Of a stretch of 64,000 nt of DNA, positions 2,780-55,846 are shown one piece after another (positions within the stretch are counted from its first letter, which is position 1; each line of letters begins with the position of its first letter). The translations under genes were made by a program, and so were the position numbers. The notes below the pieces were generated by a model. That model was not told the DNA's origin, ran no database searches, and saw only the letters and a list, made by a program, of their open reading frames with translations. This DNA is from Spartobacteria bacterium LR76. GTDB lineage: Bacteria > Verrucomicrobiota > Verrucomicrobiia > Chthoniobacterales > Terrimicrobiaceae. The stretch covers positions 248,001 through 312,000 of the forward strand of contig QAYZ01000016.1 of assembly GCA_003054655.1 (NCBI GenBank), given 5' to 3'.

Positions 2780-4861
2780 ATGCAGAATTTCCTTGCTGGT
2801 ATTGCCTTGTTCCCCGGCGGCTGCCGCCGCTGCCTCTCCCTGATGCTCATCGTTGCTTGGCTTGGCGGAGCGGCGCACGCCGAGGTCTCGCTCCCTCGGC
2901 TGTTTTCCGATCACGCGGTGCTGCAGAGGTCGGACTCGGTGCCAGTGTGGGGCAAAGGAACTCCGGGAGAGGCCGTGACGGTGACGCTGGATAAGGCAAC
3001 TGCCCAGGCCGTCACGGGATCTGATGGAAAATGGAAGGCGGTACTTAACCTGAGCGAGGTCGGAACCGGGCCATATGACCTGGTCGTGCAGGGAACGAAC
3101 ACGCTTACGGTGCGCGATGTGCTGGTGGGGGAGGTCTGGCTTTGCTCGGGACAGTCGAACATGGATTTTCCCCTGGGTTCATTCCCGGTTGCAAAAACCG
3201 AGGTCCCGGTATCGGCCAATCCGAACCTGCGGCAGTTCCTGGTCAAGCGGAAGCCTTCCGGCGAACCGCTTGATGATGTCGAAGGAGAGTGGATGGCGGC
3301 CAGCCCGGGGACTGCTGCAAAATTTTCCGCGGTGGCGTATTTCTTTGGCAAGCAGATACAGAAGGAACTAGGAGGGCCGGTCGGGCTGGTGAACTCCGCC
3401 CTGGGCGGAACGATGATCGAGGCATGGATGAGCGATGCGGCGCTGGCATCCGATCCCGTGCTGAAGGCCGGAGCAGAGAAGGCTCAGGGCAACCGGCGCG
3501 CATTTGATCAGTACGCAGATCTCTACAAGGCCTGGCAAAAGAAGTACGGGCGCGAAGATAGGAAGCAGGGCGATGCCGCCGCGTTTGCCGGCGCAGATGT
3601 GGACACCTCGGACTGGAAGCCCGTGACTCTGCCGGGGTTTCTCGCAGAGGCCGGTTTACCCGAGAGCGGTGCGATCTGGGTGCGCCGCAAGGTGCCCGCG
3701 CCCTCACCGCCGGACATCTCTCCGAAAAATGGCGTCGACATGTTTCTCGATAACATCCGCGACTCGAACGAGGTTTACTGGAACGGGCGAAAGGTCGGGA
3801 GCAGCGCGGTGGATAGCGTCGTGCATCGCTATGGCGTCAAAGGCGATTTCGTGAACGAAGGGGACAATGTGCTGGCATTGCGTATTTTCAGCGCCGGCGA
3901 TAGCGGCGGTGTGGCACCGGGCGGCCAGCGTTTCCAGGGAAATCACGTCCCCTTCAAAGGCGAGTGGCTGGCCAAGGTGGAGTACGAGTTTCCTCCGCTC
4001 GACGCAGCGGCGAGGGCGGAATTTCCCGAGCGGCCTGTAACGCCGATCGATGCCCAGAACGTCGCCGGGTACATGTACAATGCCATGATCAACCCCCTTA
4101 TTCCCTATGCCATTCGCGGCGTGATCTGGTATCAGGGCGAGGCAAACTGGAATCGCGGATACCAGTATCGCACGGCATTTCCCGCTCTGATCACCGACTG
4201 GCGGGCCAAGTGGGGACGCGGCGATCTGCCGTTTTATTACTGCCAGATCGCGAACCTCGGGCCGCACAGCAAACAGCCCGAGAAGACATCGATGTTTGCT
4301 GAAGTGCGCGAGGCGCAAAGCATGGCGCTCTCGCTGCCCAATACCGGGCAGGCTGTGCTGATCGATCTCGGCGAGGAGAATAACATCCATCCGGCGGACA
4401 AGGTGTCGGTCGGAGACCGTCTGGCACGGATTGCTCTTGCCCGGACTTATGGAAGGAATGTGGTGTATTCCGGCCCTGTCTTTGACTCCATGACCGTCGA
4501 AGGAGACAAGGCAAGGATCCGGTTCAGGCATGCCGAGGCCGGGCTTGTTGCCAGACCGATGCCTGAGACGTATGCACCAGACTCGAAGAATCCCCGCATG
4601 GTTCCGCTCGTGCGCAACTCCCCTCTGTCGGAACTCGAGGGCTTCGCGATCTGCGGGGAAGACATGAAATGGGTATGGGCCAATGCAAAGATCGACAGCG
4701 ACACCGTGGTCGTCTCCTCCGAGGCTGTGCCCAAGCCGGTGGCCGTGCGCTATGCCTGGGCTCAGAATCCCTTTTGCAACCTGTACAACGCTGCGGGATT
4801 GCCGGCCAATCCCTTTCGTACGGATGATTTCCCGCTTGCTTCGAGGCACGCAAAATATTGA
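2780..4861 (+). CDS. Secreted sialate O-acetylesterase (SGNH family)
   Basis: The 693-residue product has an N-terminal signal peptide (hydrophobic LMLIVAWLGGAAHA near residue 30) followed by the family opening LPRLFSDHAVLQR. The catalytic serine is visible in CSGQSNMDFP (Ser126), and the C-terminal Asp/His block in NNIHPADK. A jelly-roll insert around residues 270-400 (MFLDNIRDSNEVYWNG) is typical of the long bacterial forms. It should remove O-acetyl groups from sialic acids or other acetylated sugars in the periplasm or outside the cell. The start at 2780 is preferred because it directly precedes the signal peptide; the frame is open upstream to 2732. The next gene begins 12 bp downstream, so the two form an operon. 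Confidence 0.88.
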   Translation: MQNFLAGIALFPGGCRRCLSLMLIVAWLGGAAHAEVSLPRLFSDHAVLQRSDSVPVWGKGTPGEAVTVTLDKATAQAVTGSDGKWKAVLNLSEVGTGPYDLVVQGTNTLTVRDVLVGEVWLCSGQSNMDFPLGSFPVAKTEVPVSANPNLRQFLVKRKPSGEPLDDVEGEWMAASPGTAAKFSAVAYFFGKQIQKELGGPVGLVNSALGGTMIEAWMSDAALASDPVLKAGAEKAQGNRRAFDQYADLYKAWQKKYGREDRKQGDAAAFAGADVDTSDWKPVTLPGFLAEAGLPESGAIWVRRKVPAPSPPDISPKNGVDMFLDNIRDSNEVYWNGRKVGSSAVDSVVHRYGVKGDFVNEGDNVLALRIFSAGDSGGVAPGGQRFQGNHVPFKGEWLAKVEYEFPPLDAAARAEFPERPVTPIDAQNVAGYMYNAMINPLIPYAIRGVIWYQGEANWNRGYQYRTAFPALITDWRAKWGRGDLPFYYCQIANLGPHSKQPEKTSMFAEVREAQSMALSLPNTGQAVLIDLGEENNIHPADKVSVGDRLARIALARTYGRNVVYSGPVFDSMTVEGDKARIRFRHAEAGLVARPMPETYAPDSKNPRMVPLVRNSPLSELEGFAICGEDMKWVWANAKIDSDTVVVSSEAVPKPVAVRYAWAQNPFCNLYNAAGLPANPFRTDDFPLASRHAKY

Positions 4862-47099: not shown

Positions 47100-48551
47100 T
47101 TATTTAAGGGGAGCGACCTGTTTGTTCCAGCCTGAGAGTCGCTCGTAGGCGTCGGCCACCCCGAGGAGCCGGGCGTCATCAAGCGGTTTTCCAAGGAACT
47201 GGAGTCCGACCGGGAGTTGCTTCCCGCCTTCTTCCACAAATCCACATGGAACGCTGATGCCGCAGATTCCAGCCAGGTTGGCTGCAATGGTGAAAATATC
47301 CGCCAGATACATGCGCAGCGGGTCGCTCGTGCGCTCGCCGATCGGAAAGGCCAGATCAGGCGAGGTCGGGCAGACGATGGCGTCGACCTTCTCATACGCG
47401 GCTCCAAAGTCGCGCCGGATGAGCGTGCGCACCTTTTGCGCCCGGAGGTAGTACGCATCGTAGTAGCCGCTCGACAGGACATAAGTACCCAGAATGATAC
47501 GCCGTTTTACCTCACTGCCAAATCCCTCCTCGCGCGAGCGCAGGTAGAGATCCATCAGGTCCTTCGGCTGATCGGCGCGTTTGCCGTAGCGTACGCCGTC
47601 GAAGCGGGCCAGGTTGGCCGAGGCCTCGGCCGTGGCGATGATGTAGTAAACCGACACCGCGTATTCCGTATGTGGGAGCGAGATTTCGACCAGTTCCGCC
47701 CCGGCGGATTCACACTGGCGGATGGCTTCCTCGACCTTGGCGCGGACGCGGGCGTCCATGCCGTCGACGAAATATTCCTTCGGGATGCCGAGCTTCACGC
47801 CCTTCAGATCGCTACCGAGCTGGGAGGTGAAATCCTCCGCCGGCAGGTCGAGCGAAGTCGAGTCGCGTGGGTCGCGGCCGGCGATGGCATTGAGCAGCAA
47901 GGCGCAATCCTTCGTCGTGCGGGCAAAGGGTCCGATCTGGTCGAGCGAGGACGCAAAAGCGATGAGGCCGTAACGCGAGACGCGGCCATAGCTGGGCTTG
48001 AGGCCCACGCAGCCGCAAAGGGCGGCGGGCTGGCGAATCGAGCCGCCGGTATCCGAGCCCAGCGTGGCTGGAACCTCAAGGGCCGCCACGGCAGCCGCTG
48101 ATCCGCCCGAGGAACCGCCCGGAATGCGGGAGGTGTCCCAAGGATTGCGGGTGACCTGGTAGGCGGAGTTTTCCGTCGAGGAACCCATGGCGAATTCATC
48201 CATGTTCAGGCGTCCAAACGGAATCGCCCCCGCCGCGCGGAGCTTGGTGATGACCGTGGCGTCGTAGGGCGAGGTGTAGCCGGTGAGAATCTTCGAGGCG
48301 GCTGTGCAGGACTCGCCCTTGACGTTGATCACGTCCTTGATGCCGATCGGTACGCCGCCCAGGGGGAGGGAGATGTCGGCGGTTTCGGCGGCCTTTTTTG
48401 CCGCTTCAAAGTCACGGGAGAGGAAGGCCTGCACTTGGGGCTCGACGGCCTCGATGCGTTTTTCCAGCGCCGTGATGGCGTCGACGGGAGTGAATTGACC
48501 GGCGCGGAAGCCAGCCTGGAGTTCGGCTGCGGAGAGGGTGGTCAGATCCAT
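47100..48551 (-). CDS. gatA: Asp-tRNA(Asn)/Glu-tRNA(Gln) amidotransferase subunit A
   Basis: The 483-residue amidase (GatA is about 485) has the Ser-cisSer-Lys triad: Lys in GGVPIGIKDVINVKG, and the two serines in PGGSSGGSAAAVAALEVPATLGSDTGGSIRQPA. It releases ammonia from glutamine for the GatB kinase, giving Gln-tRNA or Asn-tRNA in the cytoplasm. It overlaps the gatC stop by 1 bp (TAATG). GatB is not encoded in the window. Confidence 0.95.
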   Translation of the reverse strand: MDLTTLSAAELQAGFRAGQFTPVDAITALEKRIEAVEPQVQAFLSRDFEAAKKAAETADISLPLGGVPIGIKDVINVKGESCTAASKILTGYTSPYDATVITKLRAAGAIPFGRLNMDEFAMGSSTENSAYQVTRNPWDTSRIPGGSSGGSAAAVAALEVPATLGSDTGGSIRQPAALCGCVGLKPSYGRVSRYGLIAFASSLDQIGPFARTTKDCALLLNAIAGRDPRDSTSLDLPAEDFTSQLGSDLKGVKLGIPKEYFVDGMDARVRAKVEEAIRQCESAGAELVEISLPHTEYAVSVYYIIATAEASANLARFDGVRYGKRADQPKDLMDLYLRSREEGFGSEVKRRIILGTYVLSSGYYDAYYLRAQKVRTLIRRDFGAAYEKVDAIVCPTSPDLAFPIGERTSDPLRMYLADIFTIAANLAGICGISVPCGFVEEGGKQLPVGLQFLGKPLDDARLLGVADAYERLSGWNKQVAPLK

Positions 48552-48838
48552 TATTCGAGAACCTTCGGGACGATCAGGAGATTGTTTGCAGAGCGCGGGG
48601 CGATGCCGAGGAAGGCTTCGCGGGGCAGGCTTTCACCCGGCACGTCGTCGCGGGTGACGTTAAAGACCGGGTAGGTGTGGGCTGTCGGCTCCACATCCGA
48701 GACGTCCAGCTTCTTGAGATGCTCGATGTGCTCAAGGATGCGACCGAGCTGGTCTTGGAATGTGGCGACCTCCTCATCGGAGAGCGCGAGACGGGCCAGG
48801 GTGGCGACTTTGCGCACGTTCAGATCGGGTGAGCTCAT
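48551..48838 (-). CDS. gatC: Asp-tRNA(Asn)/Glu-tRNA(Gln) amidotransferase subunit C
   Basis: This 95-residue protein matches GatC in size and in its opening VRKVATLARLALSDEEVATFQDQLGRILEHIEHLKKLDVSDVEPTAH. It wraps around GatA and stabilises the amidotransferase. The next gene in the same direction is gatA, followed by a methyltransferase and two unknown genes. The 113-bp gap to the divergent dCache-LuxR gene holds both promoters. Confidence 0.92.
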   Translation of the reverse strand: MSSPDLNVRKVATLARLALSDEEVATFQDQLGRILEHIEHLKKLDVSDVEPTAHTYPVFNVTRDDVPGESLPREAFLGIAPRSANNLLIVPKVLE

Positions 48839-48951: not shown

Positions 48952-49977
48952 ATGGACCACCCAAAAACAGCCGCTTCACCGCAAAGTGCGGGGCATTTGG
49001 CTGGCCTTCTCGCCTCGCTGCATGCCCTCGGAGTCCGCAATCGCGAGGTCTATAATGGCGTTCTTCGCTCAGTGCTCGACGCAAATCCGCACTTCCTCGG
49101 GGTGTGGTCGGTCTGGCAGCCGGATGCCCTCGACGGTCGGGATCATGAATACGCCGGTGCGCCGGGGCATGATGAATCCGGCCGCTTCGTGCCGCTCTGG
49201 CATCGCTTCGGCGGGGAGGTGCAGCTCGAGCCAAATACAGATTACGACGAACCCGGCGCCCAGTGGTACCGGCTCCCGGCCTGTCGCGGCAGTCAGGTCG
49301 TCATCGACCCGTACGAGTACCGGGTCGGCGGGGAGAATCTCTTTATCGCCAGCCAGGCCGCCCCGATCAAATTCGGCGACCGCTGCGTGGGTGTGGCTGG
49401 ATTTGACGTTCACATGGACGTGCTGATCGACGCGGATGTCCGGCCGCGCAGTGTCGAACCGATTGAGAACGCCCTGAATCGCCACCACGTCATATTGGAC
49501 GATGGGGGTGATGTCCGCTTCTGGAGTCCCGTCACGCGCCAGTTGATCTGGCGCTATGTTGGCGGACGTCCCGCCGGGCAGAGCGAACTGCCTGCGCCCT
49601 TGCACGAAATGGTCGCTTCCCGGCTGCAAAATCCCTCGCGCCGCGAGGCATCGTGGACCTTTCCCAAGGGAACGAGGGAGCTGGTAATACGATTCACTCG
49701 TCATCCGCACGCGGGTTGCGTTCTCCTTCTCGTGGAGGAGCGGGGCCTGGAATGCGCTCCCTTGGCACCCGAGAGCGGGTTGAGCCTGCGTGAGCGCGAG
49801 GTGGCCGACTGGATGTGCCAGGGCAAATCCAATGAGGAAATCTCCATCATCCTCGGAATCAGCGCCCACACGGTAAAGAACCACCTGGAGAAGATTTTTC
49901 GCAAACTCGGCGTGGAAAACCGCCACGCCGCCGCACTCGCATTTCAGCGCGAATACGCTGAATCAGCCGCCTCATAG
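48952..49977 (+). CDS. LuxR-type regulator with N-terminal dCache-like sensor and no membrane helix
   Basis: The 341-residue protein begins without a signal peptide or transmembrane segment. Residues 40-190 resemble the membrane-distal half of a dCache sensor: [60 protein letters not shown] and [13 protein letters not shown]. Such domains normally face the periplasm of chemoreceptors and bind amino acids, amines or purines. Residues 195-265 look like a PAS-type linker. The C-terminal NarL/LuxR helix-turn-helix is complete: [49 protein letters not shown] start at ATG 48952, which begins a normal helical N-terminus. It lies 49 bp upstream of the ligase operon and probably controls it in response to a cytoplasmic nitrogen metabolite (inference). 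Confidence 0.8.
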
Positions 49978-50005
49978 GAAGGTCTTCCTATTGTTGTACA
50001 GGAAG
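49975..50005. promoter_or_regulatory. Inverted repeats between the LuxR gene and the ligase operon
   Basis: TAGGAAG-GT-CTTCCTA (49975-49990) is a perfect 7-bp dyad that begins at the stop codon of the regulator. A third half-site AGGAAG follows at 50000-50005, so CTTCCT (49984-49989) can pair with either neighbour. This could be a LuxR operator or two alternative RNA hairpins in the leader of the ligase gene, whose start is at 50027. Confidence 0.5.
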
Positions 50006-50026
50006 GACGGAGGCAGTGTGCGAGCC

Positions 50027-51379
50027 ATGTCGGACGTAGAAGCAATCAAACAGGATCTTCAGGGAAAAGGTGTGAAGTATTGCATCGGCGCTTACGTGGA
50101 TATCCACGGTGTCCCCAAGGGGAAGGTCGTCCCAATTTCGCATTTCGAGGACTTTGCGGCAGGCTCGGAGCTTTACACGGGATACGCACTCGATGGTCTC
50201 GGTCAGAGTCCCAACGACGATGAGATCGCCTCGGTGCCTGATCTGGAGCGCGGCATTCAGCTTCCCTGGCAGAAGGAAGTCGCCTGGTTTCCGGCGGACA
50301 ATACCTATCACGGCGAGTCCTATCCGCTGAATACCCGCAACGTCCTGAAGGGCGTTCTCGCCCGCGCCGCGGAGAAAGGCTGGAAGTTCAATCTCGGCAT
50401 CGAATGCGAAGTCTACTTCCTTAAGCTAACAGACGACGGAAGGCTTGAGGTGGCTAACAAGGACGACAATCTTTCCAAGGCCGCCTACGATGTGAAGCGC
50501 TTCCTCGATAGTTATCCCATGCTGGATGAGATCGCCGGGTACATCGATGATCTGGGCTGGGGATTGTATTCCTTCGATCACGAGGACGGCCACGGGCAGT
50601 TCGAGTTTGATTTTGGCTATTCCGACGCGCTGACCATGTGCGACCGTTACATCTTCTTCCGCTACATGGCGAAGCAGGTTGCGGCGAAGTATGGGCTTAT
50701 CGCTACCTTCATGCCGAAGCCGTTCGGCGACAAGACGGGCAACGGTGCGCATTTCAACATGTCGCTGGCCAGCCTGGAAAGCGGTGAGAACCTTTTCAAA
50801 CAGGCGGATCGGAGTGATCCGTACGGTCTCGGGCTGTCCACGCTGGGCTATCAGTTCACCGCTGGTATCCTTCGTCACGGCCAGGCCCTTTGCGCCGCCT
50901 GGGCACCGACGGTGAACAGCTATAAGCGCCTCGTGCGTCGCGGCCTCATGGGCTACTACTCATGGGCTCCGGTCTTCAATTCCTTCGGCACGAACAACCG
51001 CACCAACTCGATCCGCATCCCCATGGCGGGCGGACGGGTGGAATCGCGCAACGCCGACTCAAGCTGCAATCCCTATCTCGCCGCCGCTCTCGCGCTTGCT
51101 GCCGGGCTAGAGGGCATCGAGCAACAGCTCGATCCCGGGCCGCCACGCACGGAAAATCTTTACGAACACACTGATGCCGAGCTCGCTGAACTCGGTGTCC
51201 AGCATCTGCCTAGATCGCTCGGCGAAGCTGTTGCGGCCTTTGACCGTGACCCATTCGTCGAGCAGGTTCTCGGGGCGGAGCTGAAGAAGGAATTTATCAC
51301 TTACAAATCCGCGGAGTGGGAGGAGTACAACCTCACTGTCACGCCGTGGGAAATTCACAAATACGCCCGCCTATACTGA
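50027..51379 (+). CDS. Type III glutamine synthetase-like ligase (GlnT family)
   Basis: The 450-residue protein has the GS fold with IECEVYFLK and [13 protein letters not shown] supplying metal ligands and [22 protein letters not shown] the ATP/glutamate block. [33 protein letters not shown] matches GlnT-type (type III) ligases. This group contains glutamine, gamma-glutamylmethylamide and related gamma-glutamylamide synthetases. The neighbouring amidotransferase and amidohydrolase suggest an amine or amide substrate rather than ammonia assimilation. Start: ATG 50027; an in-frame GTG at 50018 lies closer to the GGAGG at 50009-50013 and is equally possible. The amidotransferase begins 3 bp after its stop. 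Confidence 0.85.
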
Positions 51380-51382
51380 CCC

Positions 51383-52087
51383 ATGCGCTCGAAGAAAGTC
51401 CTGTTCGTCCAACACGGAGATACCGACAAACCCGGCCTGCTCGGTGAAGTCCTCACCCAGCGCGGCATCAGCCTTGATGTGCTAAGGTCCGACCTTGGTC
51501 AGTCGGTTCCCGTCACGTTGGAAGGATACGATGGACTTGCCTTGGGCGGTGGAGCACAGGGAGTTTACGAGCAGGAACAGTATCCCTATCTAGGAGCAGA
51601 GACGAATCTGGTGCGTCAGGTCGTCTCCGAGGGCAAGCCGATCATCGGCCTGTGCCTCGGCGCGCAGTTGATGGCGGCGGGCCTTGGCGCGGAGGTGCGC
51701 AAGGCGCCTCATCGCGAGGTGGGATTCTATCGCGTCACGCTCGATCCCATCGCGGATTACGACCCGATCTGGGGCGGTCTGCCGAAAAACTTTGTCACCA
51801 CGCACTGGCATGGCGACGTGTTTGAGATCCCGGTCGGCGGCATGCGTCTCGGGTCCTCGGAACTCACCCCGAACCAGCTCTTCCGCTACGGTCACTCGCT
51901 TTACGGCATGCAGTTTCATCTGGAGATGACGTCTGAGATTCTCGCCGAGATGGTGGAGGATTCCCGGGATTATCTCACCGAATCGGGAGTCGATCCCGAC
52001 ATCATGGTTTCTCAGGGAAAGGAATGCCTGCCGGTACTGCGCGAAACGGCGATCGAGGTGTTCACACGCTGGAGCGATCTCTTATGA
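51383..52087 (+). CDS. Class I glutamine amidotransferase
   Basis: The 234-residue enzyme has the triad of class I GATases: nucleophile Cys in PIIGLCLGAQLMAAGLG, His in GMQFHLEMTSEI with the following Glu. It resembles GMP synthase-type stand-alone domains and PuuD-like gamma-glutamyl hydrolases. Next to a GlnT-like ligase it may remove the gamma-glutamyl group from a gamma-glutamylated intermediate, or feed ammonia to another enzyme. It starts 3 bp after the ligase and overlaps the creatininase gene by 4 bp. Confidence 0.85.
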   Translation: MRSKKVLFVQHGDTDKPGLLGEVLTQRGISLDVLRSDLGQSVPVTLEGYDGLALGGGAQGVYEQEQYPYLGAETNLVRQVVSEGKPIIGLCLGAQLMAAGLGAEVRKAPHREVGFYRVTLDPIADYDPIWGGLPKNFVTTHWHGDVFEIPVGGMRLGSSELTPNQLFRYGHSLYGMQFHLEMTSEILAEMVEDSRDYLTESGVDPDIMVSQGKECLPVLRETAIEVFTRWSDLL

Positions 52088-52911: not shown

Positions 52912-53877
52912 ATGATGAAAAAAACACTGATGGGTCTGCTCGCTGCCGCGCTCTGTGGCGGTGTCGCGCAGGCGGAACCCCTGAAGATCGGTTACAGCGA
53001 CTGGCCGGGCTGGGTGGCCTGGGAGGTTGCAATCCAGAAGGGCTGGTTCAAGGAAGCCGGCGTGGATGTTCAGTTTGAATGGTTCGAGTACGTGCCCTCG
53101 ATGGAAGCCTTCGCCGCAGGCAAGCTCGACGCTGTCTGCATGACGAATGGCGACGCCCTCGTGACCGGCGCGACCGGAGCACCGAGCAAGACGATTATCA
53201 TTAATGACTTTTCGAACGGCAATGACATGATCGTCGGACAGCCGGGCATCGAGAAGCTGCAGGATCTCAAGGGCAAGAAGATCGGCGTCGAAGTCGGTTT
53301 CGTCGACCACCTCCTCCTGCTCAAGGGCCTTCAGGCCGTGGGCATGAAGGAATCCGACGTCGAGCTCGTCAACGTACCGACAGGGGAAACACCCAAGGCT
53401 CTCGCCTCCGGTGATGTCGCCGCCATCGGCGCCTGGCAGCCGAACTCCGGGCAGGCAATCAAAGCCGTCCCCGGTGCCAAGCCGATCTACACCAGCAAGG
53501 ACGTCCCGGGCCTGATCTATGACGTTCTTGCGGTGAACCCGGCCAGCCTCTCGGCTCATCCCGAGGAGTGGAAAAAGATCGCCAAGGTTTGGTACAAGGT
53601 CGTCGACTACTTCTATGATCCCGCCACGCATGATGATGCGGTCAAGATCATGGCCTCCCGCGTGAATCTCTCGCCTGAGGAATATGCGAAGTTCGTCAGC
53701 GGCACGAAGATCCTGAAGCTCGACGAAGCCAAGAAGGCGTTCAAGAAAGGCGAGGGCCTCGATTCCGTCTACGGCTCGAATGTCGTGGTCGACGAGTTCA
53801 ACGTCTCCAACAAGGTCTATGACAAGCCGCAGCCCACGGCGGACTACATCGCTCCGGCTATCACGGACTCTCTGTAA
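52912..53877 (+). CDS. ABC transporter substrate-binding protein, SsuA/TauA type (urea carboxylase-associated-like)
   Basis: The 321-residue protein has a signal peptide cut at AQAEP and a periplasmic NMT1/SsuA-like fold. [59 protein letters not shown] and [15 protein letters not shown] strongly resemble binding proteins found beside urea/guanidine carboxylase genes in other bacteria (recollection of family pattern, not a search). It delivers a small N- or S-containing solute to the permease. It is 36 bp after the creatininase. A GC hairpin after the stop may keep its mRNA more abundant than the membrane genes. Confidence 0.82.
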
Positions 53878-53937: not shown

Positions 53938-54975
53938 ATGAGCAAGGGAAAGAAATGGCTGGTTCCATTCGGGACGCTCTCGGAGCCCCGGCAGTTGATT
54001 CTGCTGTGGATCTCCTTTACCCTCCCGCTGGCGGTCTGGGCGATCGTCAGTTATGTGCCGTTCGTCTGGCACCCGCTGGTGAAGATCGATGATCCGGGCG
54101 ACGTTTCGTATTTCACCCGCGACGCGCTGATCGAGCGCACGACTTTCAAAGCTGAGAATGCGAAGCTGGCAGCCTCGGGCGGTCACATCGCCACCGGCAC
54201 CCCGGCGAATCCGGTCTTTCTTCCCGCACCTCATGAGGTAGCTGTTGCCTTTTACAAAAGCTTCACCACGCCGCCCAAGCGAAAGGGCGACAAGTGGCTG
54301 CATGAAAGCCTCTGGCAAAGTATCCAGGTCATCTTCTGGGGCTTTCTCTGGAGTTCCGTCGTAGGGGTTCCAATCGGCATCCTCTGCGGCACCTTTCCGT
54401 TTTTTTCCCGCATCACCGAGCCTTTTGTGGACTTTACCCGCTACATGCCTGCGCCGGCCTTTGGCGCGCTGGCGGTGGCTGTCCTCGGTATTTACGAAGC
54501 ACCAAAGATCGCCATTATTTTCATCGGCACGTTCTTTCAGCAGGTGCTGGTGATAGCCAATACGACCCGCAAACTGGATACATCCCTTGTTGAAGCAGCG
54601 CAGACGCTGGGTGCGAATCGCCGCCAGCTCCTGTTTCGCGTGGTCGTGCCTGGCATCGCGGTTGACCTCTACAATGACATGCGCATCCTGCTCGGTTGGG
54701 CCTGGACCTACCTGATCGTGGCGGAGTACATCGGTGCCAGCTCCGGCATCACGTTCTTCATCAACCAGCAGGCGAAGTACCGCATCTACGACAATGTCTT
54801 CGCGGCCATCATCATCATTGGCATCATTGGCTTTACCTCCGACCGTATCCTTGACTGGATCGGCCGCCAGCTTTTCCCATGGCAGAAGGGCGTGAAGAAG
54901 TCGCTCCTGCGCGCCATCCTCGATCGTCGTCGTAACAGCACACAGAACACGGAGACAGCCAATGCAAACGCTTAA
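53938..54975 (+). CDS. ABC transporter permease, SsuC/TauC type
   Basis: The 345-residue protein has about six to seven membrane helices and the binding-protein-dependent permease loop [21 protein letters not shown] around residue 220. An extended periplasmic loop between helix 1 and 2 (residues 45-110) is longer than in SsuC. It forms the import channel as a homodimer. It overlaps the ATPase gene by 14 bp. Confidence 0.88.
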
Positions 54976-55846
54976 CCTGCCCAGCCACCTCGATCAGAGT
55001 CCGGAAGTCGCCGCCCGATTCTCCAAGCTCAAGAGCCGCCCGGTCATCCTCGACGTCAAACATCTCAACAAGACGTTCCACACCCACACGACGCTCAACG
55101 ACATCTCGCTCCAGGTTTTTCGTCGCGAGTTCATGTGCGTGGTCGGCCCGTCCGGTTGCGGTAAATCGACGCTCATCCGCATCATCGCGGGGCTGGAGAC
55201 ACCCACCTCGGGCGATGTGTTGCTGGAGGGAACCCAGGTTTCCGCCCCGGGCTCGGATCGCGGCATGGTCTTTCAAGGCTACACGCTCTTCCCCTGGCTC
55301 ACGGTGAAGAAGAACGTCATGTTTGGTCTCGAAATCGGAGGGCGTTCCCCGGTGGAATCCGAGAGCGAGGCGCGCCAGTGGATCGACCTCGTCGGACTCA
55401 GCAAATTCGAGAACTCCTATCCGCACGAACTCTCCGGCGGCATGAAGCAGCGCGTCGCCATCGCCCGCGCGCTGGCCAACAACCCGCGCATCCTGCTCAT
55501 GGATGAGCCTTTCGGTGCCCTTGATGCCCAGACGCGGTGCAAGATGCAGAGCTACCTGCTGGAGATCTGGAAGCGCGTGGACGTCACGATCATGTTTGTC
55601 ACGCATGATCTGGACGAGGCGATCTACCTTTCCGACCGCATCCTGGTGCTCGGCACCAACCCGAGCCGCATCATGGAGGTCATCGAGGTGCCCGTTCCGC
55701 GCCCGCGCAGTTCCAGCCAGTTTCTCTCACCCGAGTTCCTTGCCACCAAGGCCCGTCTTGAGGAACTGATCCACGGCACGGAAGAAGCTGAACCCATGCC
55801 GCTGCCGAAGATCCGTCTCACCCATGCGGGGGACGACGTGGAGTAG
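54962..55846 (+). CDS. ABC transporter ATP-binding protein, SsuB/TauB type
   Basis: The 294-residue ATPase has Walker [20 protein letters not shown], the Q-loop [16 protein letters not shown] signature [16 protein letters not shown] and Walker [16 protein letters not shown]. It powers the importer. The N-terminal segment of about 35 residues before the ABC domain is slightly longer than usual. The stop (TAG) directly abuts the trpB stop on the other strand (TAGCTA), leaving no space for a terminator between the two operons. Confidence 0.92.

Follow-up and report, generated by a model that had tools for sequence, protein, structure and literature searches.

The gene at 48952..49977 of the window (the whole stretch of 64,000 nucleotides that was analysed) encodes a membrane-free protein, P0001, in which a chemoreceptor-type sensor module and a DNA-binding domain are joined in one chain. 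P0001 is probably a cytoplasmic one-component regulator with an amine-type PDC ligand, operating via dyads on operons for amine and urea nitrogen. Judged by homology, its layout is PDC, PAS-like domain and LuxR helix-turn-helix (HTH):

48952..49977, plus strand: regulator gene P0001, PDC - PAS-like - LuxR HTH; 341 aa, no membrane helix
48985..49431, plus strand: single PDC (membrane-distal Cache) module, residues 12-160; from Pfam PF22673, PDB matches and the alignment to PctD
49444..49767, plus strand: PAS-like domain, about residues 165-272; from a profile match to REC/GAF-LuxR regulators
49780..49938, plus strand: LuxR/GerE HTH, residues 277-329; GerE, 64.6 bits (cut-off 23.5)

Architecture of P0001 and its membrane-free family

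The open reading frame 48952-49977 is a real gene. Its product is 96-97% identical to the orthologues of two congeners and the computed dN/dS values (0.026-0.065) indicate purifying selection. A missed membrane helix or an upstream start was considered and was ruled out by hydropathy and by the codons of the congeners. The highest 19-residue hydropathy window of P0001 reached 1.16, whereas it was at least 2.46 in every membrane-bound relative examined, in agreement with the absence of a signal peptide or hydrophobic helix noted in the preliminary description. An upstream GTG (48904), located 48 bases 5' of the ATG at 48952, is GGG or GCG in the congeners, with an indel in one of them; since this GTG is not conserved, translation likely begins at ATG 48952, which leaves no room for an overlooked N-terminal helix. 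The extracytoplasmic site with flanking membrane helices that defines dCache_1 is therefore lacking in P0001. An AlphaFold2 model built from three sequences had a mean pLDDT of 49.5 and was confident for the HTH only.

The complete LuxR HTH that had been described was confirmed by the GerE match. The dCache module assigned to the first 190 residues was retained in part: one membrane-distal PDC is present, as evidenced by Pfam PF22673 (MCP-like_PDC_1) on residues 35-158 (36.2 bits, cut-off 27) and by the similarity to 3LI8, but of the two tandem PDC modules of dCache_1 only the first was matched. A whole dCache was rejected, because in place of a second PDC the protein has a PAS-like region that is homologous to the linkers of response regulators. 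Residues ~165-272 displayed a PAS-like pattern and were aligned by hhalign to the pre-HTH region of cytoplasmic REC- and GAF-LuxR regulators of the same order with a probability of 97% (E 2e-11). Neither the autoinducer-binding domain of quorum-sensing LuxR proteins, in whose place P0001 has the PDC, nor the REC domain of two-component response regulators gave a Pfam match in P0001. This architecture, together with the lack of a membrane helix, supports the earlier suggestion of a cytoplasmic Cache-type module acting straight on a LuxR HTH.

PF22673 matched exactly two proteins in the genome of the window, both of them LuxR fusions; the second, a paralogue 44% identical to P0001, is located on another contig. 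Further membrane-free members were sought in the order, the class and the phylum, and 21 membrane-free PDC-LuxR proteins were found in Verrucomicrobiota. Long forms with the PAS-like domain occur, besides the genome of the window, in G269, G466 (two) and G588 (one), and short forms of ~240-275 aa, in which the PDC leads almost directly into the HTH, were found in G010, G021, G033, G043, G051, G184, G471, G588, G703 and G780. The profile separated the cytoplasmic members (E 1e-57 or better) from the chemoreceptors (1e-47 or worse), and in a maximum-likelihood tree all 21 cytoplasmic members fell on one side of a branch with support 90/94, with one change. By these sequence relationships, the family is consistent with a single move of the PDC into the cytoplasm.

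A distant homologue was observed in G242 (L050, 2428-3462; 27% identity over residues 16-331), which has the PDC-like - PAS-like - HTH layout with a decayed pocket and a gene context different from that of P0001. In the scan of genome contigs the sole match was a congener protein, 96% identical. Among the plasmid records, 278 contained PDC relatives; no LuxR fusion was seen and all the annotated matches listed were methyl-accepting chemotaxis proteins. No PDC-LuxR relatives were found in the phages searched, and the viral contigs gave a single kind of match, a membrane receptor. One match in Neorhizobium (L063) was discarded as a PDC fusion, since it is an ordinary HTH match. No report of a chemoreceptor-type PDC joined to a LuxR HTH was found in the open-access literature.

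Neighbouring genes and the candidate operator

The regulator gene is followed by a candidate operator and by six genes on the same strand:

49974..49991, no strand assigned: candidate operator, perfect 18-bp dyad ATAGGAAGGTCTTCCTAT; overlaps the TAG stop of the regulator
50021..51379, plus strand: GlnT/GmaS-like glutamate-amine ligase, starting at GTG 50021 or ATG 50030; TIGR03105, 591.6 bits (cut-off 469.6)
51383..52087, plus strand: class I glutamine-amidotransferase-like hydrolase (GATase); PF00117
52084..52875, plus strand: creatininase-superfamily amidohydrolase; PF02633, 204 bits, under the NCBIfam creatininase equivalog cut-off
52912..53877, plus strand: NMT1/SsuA-type ABC substrate-binding protein; nearest to TIGR03427 (urea-carboxylase-associated), under its cut-off
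53938..54975, plus strand: ABC permease, NitT/TauT type
54962..55846, plus strand: ABC ATPase, NitT/TauT type

The ligase is of the type III glutamine-synthetase-like family (TIGR03105) and its best PDB matches were the glutamate-methylamine ligase 9QUR (E 4e-112) and RhGmaS (7CQL). Alignment to both structures revealed the GmaS signature residues (taken from PMC7948447), namely a Trp in place of the Glu of the Glu flap, absence of Asp50' and conservation of D177, E179 and E186; two positions differ from RhGmaS (Q175 to S, N188 to D). An Rfam search, including guanidine riboswitches among others, gave no match.

A nitrogenous ligand had been proposed from the nearby pyrimidine and amide genes. 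The ligand class was upheld, but the informative genes are those of the downstream GlnT/GmaS-like - GATase - creatininase-family - ABC operon. The genes at 47100-48838 are GatA/GatC-like (tRNA amidotransferase) and do not form a catabolic cluster, as deduced from sequence and gene order, and the pyrimidine genes (PreA/hydantoinase) lie ~3.5 kb away behind genes of the opposite strand; both clues were discounted because the former are of housekeeping type and the latter are distant and separated in this way.

Nearly all family members adjoin genes for a GlnT/GmaS-like ligase, a creatininase-family protein, a NitT/TauT-type ABC system, UAAP/urea carboxylase or a GbcA-like Rieske oxygenase. In other lineages the regulator is accompanied by the same ligase or a second one, the same ABC system, the creatininase-family protein and the GbcA-like Rieske oxygenase, and further neighbours are FGE-like and TIM-barrel proteins, biuret-hydrolase-like and PuuE-like hydrolases, and UAAP1/2 with urea carboxylase. 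This pattern does not hold for G471b, nor for G184 and the distant G242, in which none of these genes was seen in the stretch examined. Of the 210 genomes of the order, 15 carried the ligase (E 1e-120 or better) and 11 the regulator, these 11 being all among the 15; the ligase thus accompanied the regulator in 11/11 genomes vs 4/199 of the others (Fisher 2e-15, uncorrected for kinship).

GlnT - creatininase - ABC - Rieske/UAAP clusters with neither the PDC-LuxR regulator nor the dyad were observed in G035, G456, G470 and G581 (L121-L123, L120). In addition, genes for a TIM-barrel protein, an FGE/EgtB-like protein and a GbcA-like Rieske oxygenase stand together in L053 (10554-13528), and so do their orthologues in L052, L056, L103 and L106, often with the second GlnT-like ligase; this set is possibly an uncharacterised oxidative amine pathway.

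The dyad ATAGGAAGGTCTTCCTAT is placed between the regulator and the ligase and is unchanged in the congeners. The form AGGAAGNNCTTCCT has three copies in the 4.7-Mb genome, and none were found with the reversed control. Apart from the copy in the window, one copy precedes the second GlnT gene by 60 bp; here the core was kept between congeners and the upstream flank diverged. ATAGG-N8-CCTAT, the form common to the genome of the window and G269, has five copies in the former. Three of the five are kept in both congeners and precede GlnT (site 1), GlnT2 (site 2) and the UAAP1-UAAP2-urea carboxylase operon (site 3), whereas for the remaining two, which are inside coding sequence, no counterpart was found in the congeners. 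Site 3 is far from the window (L113, G000:C13:194000-203500, at 4705-4722), and the operon that it precedes is a predicted member of the regulon.

The consensus was first obtained from the sites of the genome itself, G269 and one site of G466, and the second G466 site and those of G010/G021 and G703 came afterwards. Dyads within ~130 bp of the regulator gene accounted for 2/2 genomic copies in G466, 1/1 in G703 and 1/1 in G010, a count to be read with a consensus built in part from the loci on which it was tested. Both copies of G466 flank the regulator, and the sole copy of G703 and G010/G021 is at the 3' end of this gene; G588 and G780 carry one-mismatch dyads at the 3' end of the regulator and before a permease gene of the cluster. 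Any copy of ATAGG-N8-CCTAT was present in 69/210 genomes.

A rather unlikely alternative, which deserves serious weight, is that this dyad acts as RNA, in a terminator or attenuator hairpin, or is bound by a different regulator, and is not the operator of P0001. An RNA role keeps some probability because several copies overlap stop codons and site 3 is part of a hairpin that resembles a terminator and has a T tract behind it. Moreover, no ATAGG dyad was found in the f9 lineage (G033, G043, G051, G471), in which the regulator is present. Against this, sites 1 and 2 have no T tract, the congeners have kept the 18-bp core of site 3 unchanged but not its outer stem, one copy of G466 is upstream of the regulator, and the four ligase clusters lacking the regulator also lack the dyad, even at one mismatch. 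In the f9 lineage a different dyad, TATTACGA-N10-TCGTAATA, precedes the same ABC and ligase genes (in L051, L054 and L104 those for the ABC substrate-binding protein and GlnT) and is perfect in G043 and G033. This dyad may belong to another regulator, or the operator may have changed.

Ligand pocket of the PDC module

Residues 1-173 of P0001 were used as query in a phmmer search against the PDB. The extracellular module of 3LI8 was matched at E 6e-26, far above chance, and the matches were, in order, 3LI8/3LIB (Methanosarcina mazei), 6PZJ, 9HEH, PacA (7PSG), TlpQ (6FU4/9KP3), PctD (7PRQ), McpX (6D8V) and McpU (6F9G). Every one of them covered the membrane-distal module alone. TlpQ and McpU are known as histamine/polyamine sensors. 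The domains of 3LIB (protein R1), PacA, PctD and McpX are among the amine-binding dCache_1AM domains (PMC10104139).

Pocket positions were numbered by alignment to the PctD sequence and conservation was assessed in an alignment of 41 domains. The pocket residues of P0001 are R31, D61, L82 (aromatic W155 in PctD), W83, W105-Y106, Y121, Y123, I132, S134 and D152. The PctD positions R103, D133, aromatic-188, Y189 and D235 were kept in 21/21 cytoplasmic members. The position of W155, with a documented cation-pi role, is aromatic in nearly all membrane relatives. P0001 has Leu there, and in the cytoplasmic family as a whole Y, F, L, C, S or R occur. With respect to the full dCache_1AM motif (PctD R103, D133, aromatic W155, F188, Y189, M215, S217 and D235), this Leu is the sole incompatible residue. 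P0001 was kept out of dCache_1AM because the published motif is incomplete at W155. Domains with a single mismatch in the motif were unable to bind the amines tested (PMC10104139).

The amino-acid motif was rejected, since the Arg before WY is absent, and so was the purine motif, since P0001 has an Asp at the position of D235, whereas purine sensors have none. Hence, of the amino acids, amines or purines offered as ligands in the preliminary description, the range narrows to the amine type, given the missing Arg, the purine-excluding Asp and the fact that the best relatives are amine sensors. A nitrogenous ligand is supported, at the level of sequence comparison, by the sensor structures, the motif residues, the conserved GmaS-like ligase operon and the candidate operator.

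As one position of the amine motif is unmatched, the ligand could belong to a neighbouring class, e.g. guanidinium. P0001 might also respond to a pathway metabolite that is not an amine, e.g. a gamma-glutamyl amide or a ureide (allophanate, biuret or another). The departure of the pocket from the amine motif and the allophanate-hydrolase-like, biuret-hydrolase-like, PuuE-like and UAAP genes found next to its relatives point in this direction; however, amine sensors provide the nearest sensor structures and share most of the pocket residues, and we regard a non-amine metabolite as unlikely. Loss of ligand binding, with the PDC as a mere dimerisation or protein-interaction module and the signal coming from the PAS-like domain or a partner protein, would fit the variable W155 position (L, C, S or R in many members) and the distant G242 protein (L045), which retains the layout without the pocket motif, but it is very unlikely because none of the remaining pocket residues (R, D, aromatic-Tyr, D) varies among the 21 diverged members and short members without the PAS-like domain retain the PDC and the same gene context.

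Proposed mechanism and relation to known systems

The position of P0001 at the head of a cluster for amine and urea- or guanidine-like nitrogen indicates that it is probably a one-protein switch for this cluster. Its PDC would descend from amine-sensing receptors of chemoreceptor type and would bind a small cationic nitrogen compound inside the cell, either an alkylamine or a cation related to guanidinium or ureides. The ligand-induced change would be relayed through the PAS-like domain, absent in the short forms, to the LuxR HTH; the latter, probably dimeric, would bind the ATAGG-N8-CCTAT dyads. We infer that these are bound by P0001, rather than by its 44% identical paralogue or another factor, and the same applies to the sign of the regulation. 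The putative targets are the GlnT/GmaS-like ligase - GATase - creatininase-family hydrolase - NitT/TauT-type ABC operon and, in addition, the operons of the paralogous GlnT2 and of UAAP/urea carboxylase. A more specific version, which is quite unlikely, has guanidine, methylguanidine or a creatinine-related cation as the guanidinium-type ligand of the altered pocket, and a gamma-glutamyl-amide and urea/guanidine regulon that is activated via the dyad. Riboswitches are, as far as we know, the principal means of guanidine sensing described elsewhere.

No class of extracellular sensor is commoner in prokaryotes than the Cache modules, whose use inside the cell is reported to be rare. The PDC-LuxR clade suggests that relocation into the cytoplasm and direct coupling to DNA are possible with just the ligand-binding half. 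P0001, for which a candidate operator and target operon can be named, offers a ready system for membrane-free signalling by such modules, a soluble scaffold on which biosensors of amines or similar compounds could be built, and a regulatory handle on a little-studied verrucomicrobial cluster of GmaS-like, creatininase-family, Rieske and urea-carboxylase/UAAP genes.

With respect to known systems, the ligase of the window shares its active-site signatures with those of the GmaS/GlnT (gamma-glutamylmethylamide synthetase) operons but, unlike them, ligases of this type are linked to creatininase-family, UAAP/urea carboxylase and Rieske genes. NarL/LuxR-type response regulators have the PAS-like domain and the GerE HTH in common with P0001; their input is a REC or GAF domain, whereas P0001 has the PDC there and no receiver domain. 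The Diacid_rec regulators, like P0001, have a cytoplasmic sensor of the Cache superfamily. CdaR is a one-component transcription factor, and Diacid_rec differs from P0001 in Cache family, ligand class and HTH type. Diacid_rec (CdaR-type) is a principally intracellular Cache family (PMC4822843).

The dCache_1AM domains (PctD, PacA, McpX and M. mazei 3LIB) have a distal PDC homologous to that of P0001 and share with it the Arg-Asp clamp, the aromatic-Tyr pair, the Ser and the terminal Asp of the pocket (PMC10104139). They are extracellular double Cache domains of membrane receptors, whereas P0001 has one cytoplasmic PDC, with Leu in place of the cation-pi aromatic residue, fused to PAS-like and HTH domains. 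In Actinobacteria, stand-alone dCache_1AM proteins were reported in operons with a transcription factor (PMC10104139), so that an amine-type Cache is also cytoplasmic there and probably involved in transcriptional control. Going by their description, these are set apart by having the sensor and the transcription factor as separate proteins, whereas in P0001, from Verrucomicrobiota, a single chain carries the sensor and a LuxR HTH. Intracellular Cache sensing is thus already known, and the union of a chemoreceptor-type PDC and a LuxR HTH in one chain is a new form of it.
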